Assembly (NCBI RefSeq): GCF_900129195.1
Contig: NZ_FQUY01000001.1
Span: forward strand, 248,001 to 312,000
Reading direction: 5' to 3'
Source of the DNA: Desulforamulus putei DSM 12395
GTDB lineage: Bacteria; Bacillota; Desulfotomaculia; Desulfotomaculales; Desulfotomaculaceae
DNA: 64,000 bases
The first letter of the stretch is position 1, and each line of letters begins with the position of its first letter. The notes below the pieces were generated by a model. The model worked only from the letters and a program-made list of their open reading frames with translations. It searched no databases and was not told the origin of the DNA. The position numbers and the translations under genes are program-made. This document shows positions 15,995 to 39,773 of the stretch, in pieces.

Positions 15995-16006
15995 TTATCA
16001 CTCCTA

Positions 16007-16027
16007 AAAGCTGACGGCTGACAGCTG
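16007..16027. repeat. Three-unit heptanucleotide array before dapF
   Basis: Units AAAGCTG, ACGGCTG, ACAGCTG, in the same sense as the right arm of the array at 26072-26099. It lies between the ATPase terminator and dapF. Confidence 0.6.
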
Positions 16028-16188
16028 ACCCAAAAGAAATGCCCCATAGCCCACAGATATACAATGTACAATAAGGGATCAGGCAGGAAATGTATACAAT
16101 AAGTAGAAATCTATCGATCACAGGACATACTACATGAAAACCGACTGTTGCGTAAAATGATATAAAGGACACTAAGGAGGTAACTTAT

Positions 16189-23811: not shown

Positions 23812-26007
23812 ATGCAGTACGCAGAGGTGGCCGTGTCGGTTCCCGTCCGCTTAAACCAAACCTTTCATTACCGGGTACCGGAAGCCCTGAAGGGTGAACT
23901 TAAAGTGTTCAGCCGGGTTGAGGTACCCTTTTCCGGCAGGACGGTGCAGGGGTTCGTTATTGGCTTTAGCCAACCTCCTGATCTACAAAAAATAAAAGAT
24001 ATTAAAAGGGTGATTGAAAAGGAACCCTTTTTAAATGAAGACCTTTATGTTACAGCCCGCTGGATGGTCCGGCGCTACCTGTGCAGCCTGGGGGATGTGT
24101 TGCAATGTATGGCGGGTTCCCCGGTTGGCAGTACCCGGTCAAGTCAGGAAAAGGGACTGGCAGTTGTAGAAAACCATCTTGACCTTACGGGTCTGGTGAG
24201 AGCTCCCAAACAAAAATTGGCCCTGGAGGTGGCTCTGGCCAGCCCCGGTCTTAGAAAAACCGAATTGGCGGAGAAGGCAGGGGTATCTTTATCAGTCATT
24301 AACACATTGTTGGCCAAAGGGCTTCTTAAGGAAGTTGACGCCGGCTCAGGGACGGAGAATTACCCGTCCCTGGAGGAATTGCCAACTTTGACGGCTGAAC
24401 AAAGGCTGGCTGTCAGCAAGCTGCAGCAAGCCCTGAGGGAAGCGAAGCCCTCCGCTTGGCTGCTGCATGGTGTGACCGGCAGCGGCAAAACAGAAGTCTA
24501 TCTCAGGGCCATTGAAGAAACATTAAAAATGAACCGGCAGGCCATCGTGTTGGTGCCGGAAATCTCACTTACTCCTCAGATGGTTGAAAGGTTCAGGGCC
24601 CGGTTTGGCAGCCGGGTGGCTTTGTTACATAGCGCCCTGTCCCAGGGGGAAAGATATGCCGAAAAAGCACGCATTCAATCGGGCCAGGCCACTGTGGTAC
24701 TGGGGGCCCGTTCCGCCATCTTCGCCCCGGTGCCAAACCTGGGATTAATCATAATAGACGAAGAACATGAACACTCCTACAAGCAGGAAGAAAATCCTAA
24801 GTATCATGCCCGGGAGGTGGCCCTGCAAAGGGCTGCCCAGTCCAAGTCGGTGGTAATTTTAGGCAGCGCCACCCCGGCCATTGAAAGTTATTGCAGGGCC
24901 CGGCCCGGCGGTCCCTATCAATTGATTACCCTGACCAGTCGTGTGGATCAAAGGGAACTCCCCAAAGTACATATTGTTGATCTTCGTAAGGAACTGGCTG
25001 CAGGAAACACAAGCATTTTCAGTTCTGCCCTGCAAGCTGCCCTGGCCCGGCGCCTGGCGAATCATGAAAAAAGCATTTTATTTCTCAATCGCCGGGGACT
25101 TGCCACTGTGGTGGTTTGCCGGCAGTGCGGCCAGGTCATGAAATGCCCGCGTTGCGAAATCTCTCTTACCCTGCACAGCGATGGCTGGCTAAAATGTCAT
25201 TATTGCGGTTACGGCGCCCGTGCGCCCGGGGTCTGTCCCCACTGCGCCGGTAAAACCATACGAAGTTTCGGTGTGGGGACCCAGCGGGTGGAAGAGGAAA
25301 TGAAAAAGCTCTTTCCGGGCTGCCGGGTTTTACGAATGGATGCGGATACCACCACCCGGAAGGGTTCCCACCAGAAGCTGTTGGATGAGTTTATGCACGG
25401 CGAGGCCCAGGTGCTGATCGGTACGCAAATGATCGCCAAGGGTCTGGATATTCCCCAGGTAACTTTAGTGGGTGTCATCAGCGCCGATATTACTCTGCAT
25501 ATGCCGGATTTCCGTGCGGCGGAAAGAACCTTTCAACTGCTTACCCAGGTGGCCGGCCGGGCCGGTCGGGGAGAAAAAACGGGGGAAGTCATTATTCAAA
25601 CCTATGACCCCGGGCATTTTAGTATTATAACCGCTCAAAGACATGATTACCTAGGTTTTTATCATAAAGAAATGGCTGTCCGCAGGGCCTTGCAGTATCC
25701 GCCCTTCAGCCATTTAATCAGGATTTTGTTCACGGGTTTAAATGAAGGAGACGTCATTAGTGCAGCCCAGTGGTGGCAGGAACGTTTATATTCCGCCAGA
25801 GAGGAACTGGTTGACCAGAGTATGGAAATACTGGGCCCTGCCCCGGCAGGGATTCCCCGCATCAAAGACCGCTATCGCTGGCAACTGATCCTGAAGGGCT
25901 TTGTCAGCCGTGAAGTACGCAAAGTCGCCGCTGCGGTTTTAGAACAAGCGGGAACAAGATTCAAGCAGGTGTCTGTAAGTATTGATGTAGACCCGATGAG
26001 CTTATAG
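23812..26007 (+). CDS. priA: Primosomal replication restart helicase PriA
   Basis: 3'-5' helicase that reloads the replisome at stalled forks. The 731-residue protein has an N-terminal 3'-DNA-binding domain (YAEVAVSVPVRLNQTFHYRVP), Walker A GVTGSGKTE near residue 220, DEEH box near 316, two zinc sites in the stretch CRQCGQVMKCPRC to CPHCAGKT (about 440-485), and helicase motifs QMIAKGLDIP and QVAGRAGRG. ATG follows the coaBC stop without a gap. It ends before a heptad palindrome. Confidence 0.97.
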   Translation: MQYAEVAVSVPVRLNQTFHYRVPEALKGELKVFSRVEVPFSGRTVQGFVIGFSQPPDLQKIKDIKRVIEKEPFLNEDLYVTARWMVRRYLCSLGDVLQCMAGSPVGSTRSSQEKGLAVVENHLDLTGLVRAPKQKLALEVALASPGLRKTELAEKAGVSLSVINTLLAKGLLKEVDAGSGTENYPSLEELPTLTAEQRLAVSKLQQALREAKPSAWLLHGVTGSGKTEVYLRAIEETLKMNRQAIVLVPEISLTPQMVERFRARFGSRVALLHSALSQGERYAEKARIQSGQATVVLGARSAIFAPVPNLGLIIIDEEHEHSYKQEENPKYHAREVALQRAAQSKSVVILGSATPAIESYCRARPGGPYQLITLTSRVDQRELPKVHIVDLRKELAAGNTSIFSSALQAALARRLANHEKSILFLNRRGLATVVVCRQCGQVMKCPRCEISLTLHSDGWLKCHYCGYGARAPGVCPHCAGKTIRSFGVGTQRVEEEMKKLFPGCRVLRMDADTTTRKGSHQKLLDEFMHGEAQVLIGTQMIAKGLDIPQVTLVGVISADITLHMPDFRAAERTFQLLTQVAGRAGRGEKTGEVIIQTYDPGHFSIITAQRHDYLGFYHKEMAVRRALQYPPFSHLIRILFTGLNEGDVISAAQWWQERLYSAREELVDQSMEILGPAPAGIPRIKDRYRWQLILKGFVSREVRKVAAAVLEQAGTRFKQVSVSIDVDPMSL

Positions 26008-26024
26008 GTATTCCTATCGGGTCT

Positions 26025-26099
26025 GGTCATCAGCCTTCAGCCGTCAGCCATCGGCTTTTTATAGTATAATAAAAGCTGAAGGCTGATAGCTGATGGCTG
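26025..26099. repeat. Heptanucleotide array forming a long palindrome between priA and def
   Basis: Left arm units GGTCATC, AGCCTTC, AGCCGTC, AGCCATC, GGCTTTT (26025-26059); right arm units AAAGCTG, AAGGCTG, ATAGCTG, ATGGCTG (26072-26099). Outside them GGGTC (26019-26023) pairs with GACCC (26100-26104), so the whole 86-base block is an imperfect palindrome. The loop carries TATAAT at 26065-26070, which could be a -10 element for def. Confidence 0.85.
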
Positions 26100-26142
26100 G
26101 ACCCTAAAGATTTACCCCAGAGAACAGGAGGGCTATTCAAAA

Positions 26143-38355: not shown

Positions 38356-39039
38356 ATGGTTAAAATCGCTCCCTCCATTTTATCAGCAGACTTTGCCCAT
38401 CTTGCCCAATCCGTTCAAGCGGTTGAAAGGGCCGGGGCCGAGTACCTGCATATTGATGTGATGGACGGTCACTTTGTTCCCAACATTACCATAGGACCCC
38501 CGATTGTTCAGGCGTTAAGACCGCACAGCAAAATGCTCTTTGACGTACATTTAATGATTGAATCACCGGACCGGTATATTCCTGATTTTATAAAAGCCGG
38601 GGCAGATCTGGTATGCATCCATGCCGAGGCCTGCACCCACCTGCACCGCTGTGTCTGCCAGGTCAAGGAACTGGGGGCTAGGGTGGGGGTTTCTTTAAAT
38701 CCCCACACTCCTTTGAGCCTTATCCAATATGTTCTGCCCATGCTGGATCTGGTCCTGCTGATGACGGTAAACCCCGGTTTCGGCGGGCAAAAATTCATAC
38801 CCGAGGTGCTGCCCAAGATTGAAGCCCTGTCCCGCTTGATTAAGAGAAAGGGACTGGCCGCTGAAATCGAAGTAGACGGGGGCATCAATACCGAGACAGC
38901 TCCCCTGGTGGCCCGGGCCGGCGCCAACGTGCTGGTGGCGGGCTCCGCCGTTTTCGGAGCTGACGATCCTGCCCGGGCGGTGCAGGCAATTCGGCAAGCA
39001 GCCGAAAAGAAGATGGCCATTGGCCGTTGGCCGAGGTGA
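38356..39039 (+). CDS. rpe: Ribulose-phosphate 3-epimerase
   Basis: Interconverts ribulose 5-phosphate and xylulose 5-phosphate. The TIM-barrel protein has 227 residues with MVKIAPSILSADF, HIDVMDGHFVPNITIG, the metal ligands in these and DVHLM, and VNPGFGGQKF. The last eight residues (MAIGRWPR) are encoded by a heptad array and look like an addition to the normal C-terminus. It ends the long housekeeping run; only 3 bases separate it from rsgA. Confidence 0.96.
   Translation: MVKIAPSILSADFAHLAQSVQAVERAGAEYLHIDVMDGHFVPNITIGPPIVQALRPHSKMLFDVHLMIESPDRYIPDFIKAGADLVCIHAEACTHLHRCVCQVKELGARVGVSLNPHTPLSLIQYVLPMLDLVLLMTVNPGFGGQKFIPEVLPKIEALSRLIKRKGLAAEIEVDGGINTETAPLVARAGANVLVAGSAVFGADDPARAVQAIRQAAEKKMAIGRWPR
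39015..39035. repeat. Heptanucleotide array inside the 3' end of rpe
   Basis: Units GGCCATT, GGCCGTT, GGCCGAG, in frame with and overlapping the last codons of rpe. It is the only member of the family in this window that lies in coding sequence. Confidence 0.75.
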
Positions 39040-39104: not shown

Positions 39105-39218
39105 ATGGCGGTTTGGAAATGTCAAAAGTGCGGGGCCACCAAAGAAGGCCGCTGCCGTCCTCAGAAATGTGTTTGCGGTGGTACGAAGGAAGATTTTGTG
39201 AAGGACGAAGCAAAGTAG
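39105..39218 (+). CDS. RCKP-type rubredoxin-like small protein, 37 residues
   Basis: A short frame (MAVWKCQKCGATKEGRCRPQ...CVCGG) with a strong AAAGGAGGTGGG ribosome site 5 bases before the ATG. Cysteines fall at 6, 9, 17, 22 and 24, with CxxC, an RCRP motif and CxCGG. That pattern matches RCKP-type rubredoxin-like proteins, which probably bind one iron or zinc ion. Its function is not known; such domains also occur at the C-terminus of larger redox proteins. The stop codon lies within the first unit of the large palindrome that follows. Confidence 0.75.
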   Translation: MAVWKCQKCGATKEGRCRPQKCVCGGTKEDFVKDEAK

Positions 39219-39401
39219 CTGTTAGCCTGTGAGGTATTTCTTAAGGTTCCTGTTGTTAGACTTATGGGTATGTTTGCGGGTCCTGTTGTTAATAGTGGTT
39301 TTTTCTAAAATAACTTCAATAATAACAGGACCCGAGAGGAATGCCCTTTAGTCTCGCAGCAGGACCCAAAAGGAATACCCCATAGTCCAACAACAGGACC
39401 C
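39211..39401. repeat. 191-base palindrome with three ~34-base repeats per arm
   Basis: On the + strand repeat units begin at 39211, 39245 and 39278; on the - strand units begin at 39401, 39367 and 39333. Each pair is centred on about 39306. The best conserved part of the unit is GGGTCCTGTTGTT followed by GACTATGGGGTATTCC. Units are diverged (about 60-75 percent alike by eye). A transcript could fold into one hairpin about 85 base pairs long with a central loop near 39300-39315. No reading frame is seen. It fills most of the 39219-39422 gap. Confidence 0.8.
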
Positions 39402-39422
39402 TTTAGCTTGACCCCAACGTCA

Positions 39423-39464
39423 AAAGCCAACGGCCAACAGCCAACAGTCAACGGCTAATGGCCA
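39423..39464. repeat. Heptanucleotide array of six units
   Basis: Units AAAGCCA, ACGGCCA, ACAGCCA, ACAGTCA, ACGGCTA, ATGGCCA, in the opposite sense to the three units inside rpe at 39015-39035. Together they flank the RCKP gene and the palindrome. Confidence 0.85.
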
Positions 39465-39496
39465 AAAAAAGCCGCCAGCGATAATCACTGACGGCT
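39464..39496 (-). terminator. Intrinsic terminator for the small unknown gene
   Basis: Read on the - strand, AGCCGTCAG pairs with CTGGCGGCT (one mismatch) across a 9-base loop and is followed by TTTTTT. It begins 13 bases after the stop of the 87-residue gene, which supports that gene being real. Confidence 0.85.
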
Positions 39497-39509
39497 CTTC
39501 TTATGCAGT

Positions 39510-39773
39510 TTAATTCATCTCCTCAGCGCTCTCATTCAGCATGTCCGCCACCAGACGCAGCGTTGCCACTGTGTTTGTGAGCAATATCTCATATAGCATA
39601 ACAGGCAAAACATCTTGTATGGTGGCCCCCACTTCACCGGACTGAACCTTTTTGGCCACGATATCTCCGGCCCGGTTCAGGCTGTTGTTGACCAGGGTGA
39701 TGATTTTATCCTGGTGTTCCTGTACAAATTTGTCAACATTCACAGTCAATTTAAATACACGCCCTTCAAGCAT
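39510..39773 (-). CDS. Hypothetical protein, 87 residues
   Basis: Not recognised. The proposed protein starts MLEGRVFKLTVNVDKFVQEH and ends LNESAEEMN; it looks mainly helical, acidic at the C-terminus, with no cysteine, signal peptide or membrane helix. The frame is open further upstream, but that extension would be antisense to adk and its promoter. An AAGGAG lies 15 bases before the ATG, rather far, so the exact start is uncertain. A good terminator follows and the adk promoter region is divergent, both supporting a genuine gene. Confidence 0.65.
   Translation of the reverse strand: MLEGRVFKLTVNVDKFVQEHQDKIITLVNNSLNRAGDIVAKKVQSGEVGATIQDVLPVMLYEILLTNTVATLRLVADMLNESAEEMN

Follow-up and report, generated by a model that had tools for sequence, protein, structure and literature searches.

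A nested palindrome of Desulforamulus putei, probably one copy of a dispersed intergenic hairpin repeat

What is the long palindrome with repeated units in both arms that fills an intergenic gap of Desulforamulus putei DSM 12395, and how did it grow? It lies in a 64,000-nucleotide stretch of the genome (hereafter, the window), and a preliminary description proposed a structured non-coding RNA, a mobile-element remnant or hairpin-templated copying. We consider it probable that the palindrome belongs to a family of dispersed, non-coding REP/MITE-like hairpin repeats, which lie between genes, are non-autonomous, and expand locally.

The six units reported earlier were all found in their places, and the fold centre (39304.5–39308.5) agrees with the claimed centre of dyad symmetry at 39306. 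The fold check gave a minimum free energy of −90.1 kcal/mol (z = −9.0 vs. dinucleotide shuffles) with 76 pairs running from 39208/39409 inwards, and the whole nested element is accordingly placed at 39208..39409. The mean similarity score of the six units is 3.87, whereas the identical layout placed at 1,975 other window positions scored −7.92 (sd 1.19, maximum −2.67), and none of these positions equalled the palindrome. The units are degenerate, with pairwise ungapped identities of 26–74%. Three repeats of about 34 bases had been described per arm; two of them are full units, but the innermost is only half a unit, its pair being alike over the first ~13 bases and then turning into the loop (39283..39328; arms 39277–39304 and 39307–39334). 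As described earlier, this is neither a CRISPR array, since the units are inverted about the centre and lack unique spacers, nor a simple MITE, since the arms are nested and multi-unit.

The family is defined by a core of 17 bases, GGTATTYCTTNNGGGTC, with the inverted form GACCCNNAAGRAATACC. In these terms, each arm of the palindrome contains two cores with three spacers, and on the right there is also a third, truncated core. The left outer core (39233..39249, minus strand; GGTATTTCTTAAGGTTC read on the plus strand) has one mismatch to the genome-wide pattern, and the left inner core (39266..39282, minus strand; GGGTATGTTTGCGGGTC) is degenerate and was assigned by direct repetition and alignment. 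On the plus strand, the right inner core GACCCGAGAGGAATGCC occupies 39329..39345, the right outer core GACCCAAAAGGAATACC at 39363..39379 is an exact match, and one or more truncated third cores, GACCC...GACCCC, can be noted in the sequence at 39397..39415.

The palindrome occupies a convergent gap, and a 37-aa rubredoxin-like ORF (39105..39219, plus strand), which is kept across the genus and has no Pfam match, has its stop codon TAG (39217–39219) within the outer left unit. In genome G006 (L143, ORF start near 1355) this protein is only 22 aa long owing to an in-frame deletion of the second cysteine motif (GRCRPQKCACGG). A run of 7-bp repeats, GCCAACG/GCCAACA, adjoins the palindrome at 39426..39463 and has an inverted partner at 39014–39031; the repeats there lie within the 3′ end of rpe (39014..39034, plus strand) and encode a C-terminal extension, MAIGRWPR, which is absent in the G003 orthologue. 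A hairpin with a T-run, recognised by eye at 39464..39497 on the minus strand, probably serves as terminator for the minus-strand ORF that ends at 39510; the consensus terminator scan does not list it. The window contains two more members of the family: one at 26000..26117, which immediately adjoins the upstream ORF's stop codon and has a single core in each arm flanking a 7-bp-repeat hairpin, and one at 16000..16052 (plus strand), with a single right core and the 7-bp repeats AAGCTGACGGCTGACAGCTGACCC.

A genome search with the palindrome segment revealed further copies. The core is present tens of times in the D. putei genome and in many Desulfotomaculales; its pattern has 37 exact occurrences in this genome vs. 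0 for a reversed-pattern control, which was almost nil in the relatives as well. It is carried by 31 of the 113 genomes of the class in uneven numbers (56 in G002, 40 in G036, 34 in D. putei in this survey, 23 each in G009 and G010, none in the congener G003), and by 10 of 398 genomes in a phylum-wide sample. As the unit occurs throughout the genome and in relatives, the null explanation given earlier, a neutral local duplication, is rejected. Literature searches found no description of these repeats, which constitute a previously unlabelled family scattered between genes in Desulfotomaculum-type bacteria. The G002 cores are mostly clustered in one region around glyA (G002:C1:2050000-2410000), and partial clustering there is also observed in G000, G004, and G006. 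In G004, one core pair occurs twice, 8,008 bp apart (G004:C1:203985 and 211993), which suggests a segmental duplication including an element.

The sequence accompanying the core depends on the genus. In Pelotomaculum the core is located inside GGGGACACACCTC...GAGGTATGTCCCC, it adjoins ACAGGATTA repeats in G036 and a Soudan MAG and GTGGAAA repeats in G107, and in Lutispora thermophila (L078) it flanks a ACACGGATT hairpin on both sides, right at a stop codon. Core and accompanying repeats therefore act like modules that can be separated. The 17–22 bp core might be the recognition site of putative machinery that places a hairpin just between the stop codon and the ribosome-binding site and fills it with host-local short repeats (7-bp repeats, ACAGGATTA, GGGGACACACCTC, ACACGGATT); we regard this proposal as distinctly unlikely, though if true it would mean that Clostridia-type bacteria share a class of mobile composite hairpins. 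Among GTDB contigs, 101 exact matches to the 17-mer were found, part of them unrelated: some look like coding coincidence (one frame reads TPKEY), and others are members of another hairpin-like family. The latter is a different conserved sequence, ending in ...AACGTTA followed by variable sequence, which holds the 17-mer in Alkaliphilus, Clostridium, Acetivibrio, and a Lokiarchaeota MAG (loci L064, L068, L069, L081, L082, L083, L090, L091, L099, and L105) and may represent a recombination site, integron-like or of another kind.

Placement and layout were analysed in the window, in 360 kb of G002, and in G000 stretches totalling about 420 kb; these stretches were partly selected for holding copies, and the ORF calls come from a simple greedy procedure. 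Of 98 perfect cores, just 2 fall within ORFs of at least 150 aa, which cover roughly 67–90% of the stretches. In 31 of 66 cases the core is within 10 nt of a stop codon, and the GGTATT end faces the stop in 37 of 38 stop-proximal cores; the far end of the element adjoins the ribosome-binding site of the next gene. In the 73 elements of the G002 and G000 stretches, left-orientation cores usually precede right-orientation ones; 37 elements are strictly nested (L..LR..R), 21 are one-armed, and 15 have other layouts. Their interiors are additional 32–34 bp units or runs of 7-bp repeats, and a spacing of exactly 7 dominates (248 spacings).

In a comparison of syntenic gaps, those with elements were longer. 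Orthologous gaps have a median of 110 bp without the core vs. 240 bp with it, and the gap with an element is the longer one in 39 of 50 pairs (p = 2.5e-5), several of which share a locus and are not fully independent. Some core-free orthologous gaps measure only 0–45 bp. At glyA, the distance from the stop to the next start is 5 bp in G006, vs. long, differing elements in G000 and G002; a second site measures 45 bp in G003, 93 bp in G000, and 348 bp in G002, and another is 26 bp in G006. The order at the window locus, namely rpe, 37-aa rubredoxin-like ORF, gap, reverse ORF, and adk, is seen in G000; all nine members of the genus have the reverse ORF. When this gap was compared in eight congeners, G007 had a one-unit hairpin, G002 and G004 had core-like sequence together with 7-bp repeats, G001 and G005 had hairpins of 7-bp repeats, and G003 and G006 lacked any such element.

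At the window locus the position is therefore kept while the structure varies, which is evidence against a conserved RNA. The structured RNA suggested earlier, in the form of a regulatory RNA gene of this locus, could account for the very stable fold; however, the congeners' gaps hold other hairpins or ordinary sequence, the repeat is dispersed with a variable number of units, and no Rfam 15 family reaches the gathering threshold. We consider such a gene very improbable, and the hairpin folds of repeats of this kind are a warning against annotating them as RNA genes.

A bidirectional transcription terminator or mRNA 3′-end stabiliser, elongated yet under selection as an RNA hairpin, is unlikely as well. 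It would suit elements lying directly 3′ of stop codons, the window copy in a convergent gap, and fold stability (median z of −4.6 in 53 elements vs. −1.6 in core-free gaps). However, the consensus scan for an intrinsic terminator (GC-rich stem and T-run) finds none at the palindrome, whose stem is not followed by a T-run, in agreement with the earlier rejection of a terminator. Many copies are found between genes that run in the same direction and have orthologous gaps of only 0–45 bp, probably inside operons, and several congeners have no element at orthologous sites. The sense strand folds no better than the antisense (16 vs. 17, p = 0.61), so that selection on the RNA fold is not indicated, and RNA-level selection through strand-specific G–U wobble was rejected.

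The suggestion of a mobile-element remnant came close. A true MITE, with the core as the terminal inverted repeat and moved by a putative transposase, would agree with the inverted cores at element ends, with interiors unrelated between genera (Lutispora L078, Pelotomaculum, G036), and with relatives' sites empty of the core. Against it, visual inspection of syntenic sites (e.g., the glyA end) revealed no flanking duplication, and no core-bounded transposase or other autonomous partner was found among the five L–R pairs 0.5–5 kb apart in the examined stretches; a domain search in the only exact-core pair (L118) showed that its two ORFs encode DUF1934 and arginyl-tRNA synthetase. Plasmids, phages, and viral contigs are not enriched in the core, and a phage or plasmid origin was rejected on this ground. 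A true MITE is quite improbable. REP/BIME of enterobacteria, the repeats of RAYT Y1 transposases, are short dispersed intergenic palindromes, mosaics of inverted units, found 3′ of genes near stop codons. A RAYT link was rejected here, as G010 has 23 cores and no Y1_Tnp gene, and Y1_Tnp is not associated with core copy number; most core-free relatives have a Y1_Tnp gene. Given this and the unproven MITE membership, the repeat is named REP/MITE-like only.

As for the growth of the arms, in G002 two arrays of period 34 face each other (5.4 copies at 94% and 4.1 copies at 87%), and neighbouring units of the same arm are more alike than non-mirror units of opposite arms (p = 0.0002); together, these observations establish tandem duplication. 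Strict mirror descent of units by nested insertion was dropped, since mirror-paired units are not significantly more similar than non-mirror ones (p = 0.09). Ranking whole-arm alignments of each arm against its own partner gave a modest signal (median rank 13–14 of 47) and was replaced, after this result had been seen, by repeat-class counts with within-genome permutations. By these counts, the arms of one element share the 7-bp-repeat class (G000, p = 0.0003; G002, p = 0.019), which is consistent with arm-to-arm copying. The hairpin-templated copying proposed earlier came close and is partly supported: it agrees with the shared repeat type, but a significant likeness was seen between same-arm neighbours and not between mirror-paired units.

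In the REP/MITE-like reading, the basic module would be a 17–22 bp core (TTARGGGTATTCCTTTGGGGTC) inverted at both ends of a hairpin and placed between the stop codon of one gene and the ribosome-binding site of the next. Once in place, core-plus-spacer units of 32–34 bp and 7-bp repeats would multiply within an arm by tandem duplication, and the arms would probably be kept alike in repeat type via template switching or gene conversion between them. The palindrome studied here would then be one of these hairpins, with arms that have reached two and a half units each. As an alternative to mobility, the elements may have spread slowly by vertical descent and grown repeatedly and independently. 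The palindrome probably has no sequence-specific function and is presumably neutral; if transcribed, it would form a long 3′-UTR hairpin that may stabilise or attenuate the message. The family explains a large share of the intergenic length variation in the genus. It also offers a natural system that can be counted: dozens of homologous hairpins with one to several units in each arm, together with core-free syntenic gaps, on which the origin, growth, and lasting symmetry of long palindromes in bacterial chromosomes can be studied.

The family resembles several known systems. It shares with MITEs the inverted terminal sequences, the non-coding interior, and the empty orthologous sites; it differs in its nested multi-unit arms and host-dependent interior, and in that no target duplication or autonomous partner was found. 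Like REP/BIME, it consists of dispersed extragenic palindromes of inverted units near stop codons; however, no sequence relation was seen, and its build is a 17-bp core with 32–34 bp or 7-bp tandem units. The integron attC pattern (RYYYAAC ... GTTRRRY) does not run through all members: attC-like GTCTAAC/GTTAGAC is present in the window palindrome and absent from GTCTGGGC and the 7-bp-repeat members. Quasipalindrome template-switch mutation, a known mechanism of arm-to-arm copying, makes inverted-repeat arms alike and can create hairpins (PMC7202029, PMC8794818); it explains maintenance, but not genome-wide dispersal or the common core. Many sets of intergenic direct 7-bp repeats are also found among the heptamer repeats, namely the TAACTGA sets of Beggiatoaceae (PMC4679880) and the cyanobacterial STRR. 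The Beggiatoaceae sets consist of one fixed heptamer in 2–6 direct copies upstream of ORFs (PMC4679880), whereas the heptads described here vary and form matching inverted arms bounded by the core.
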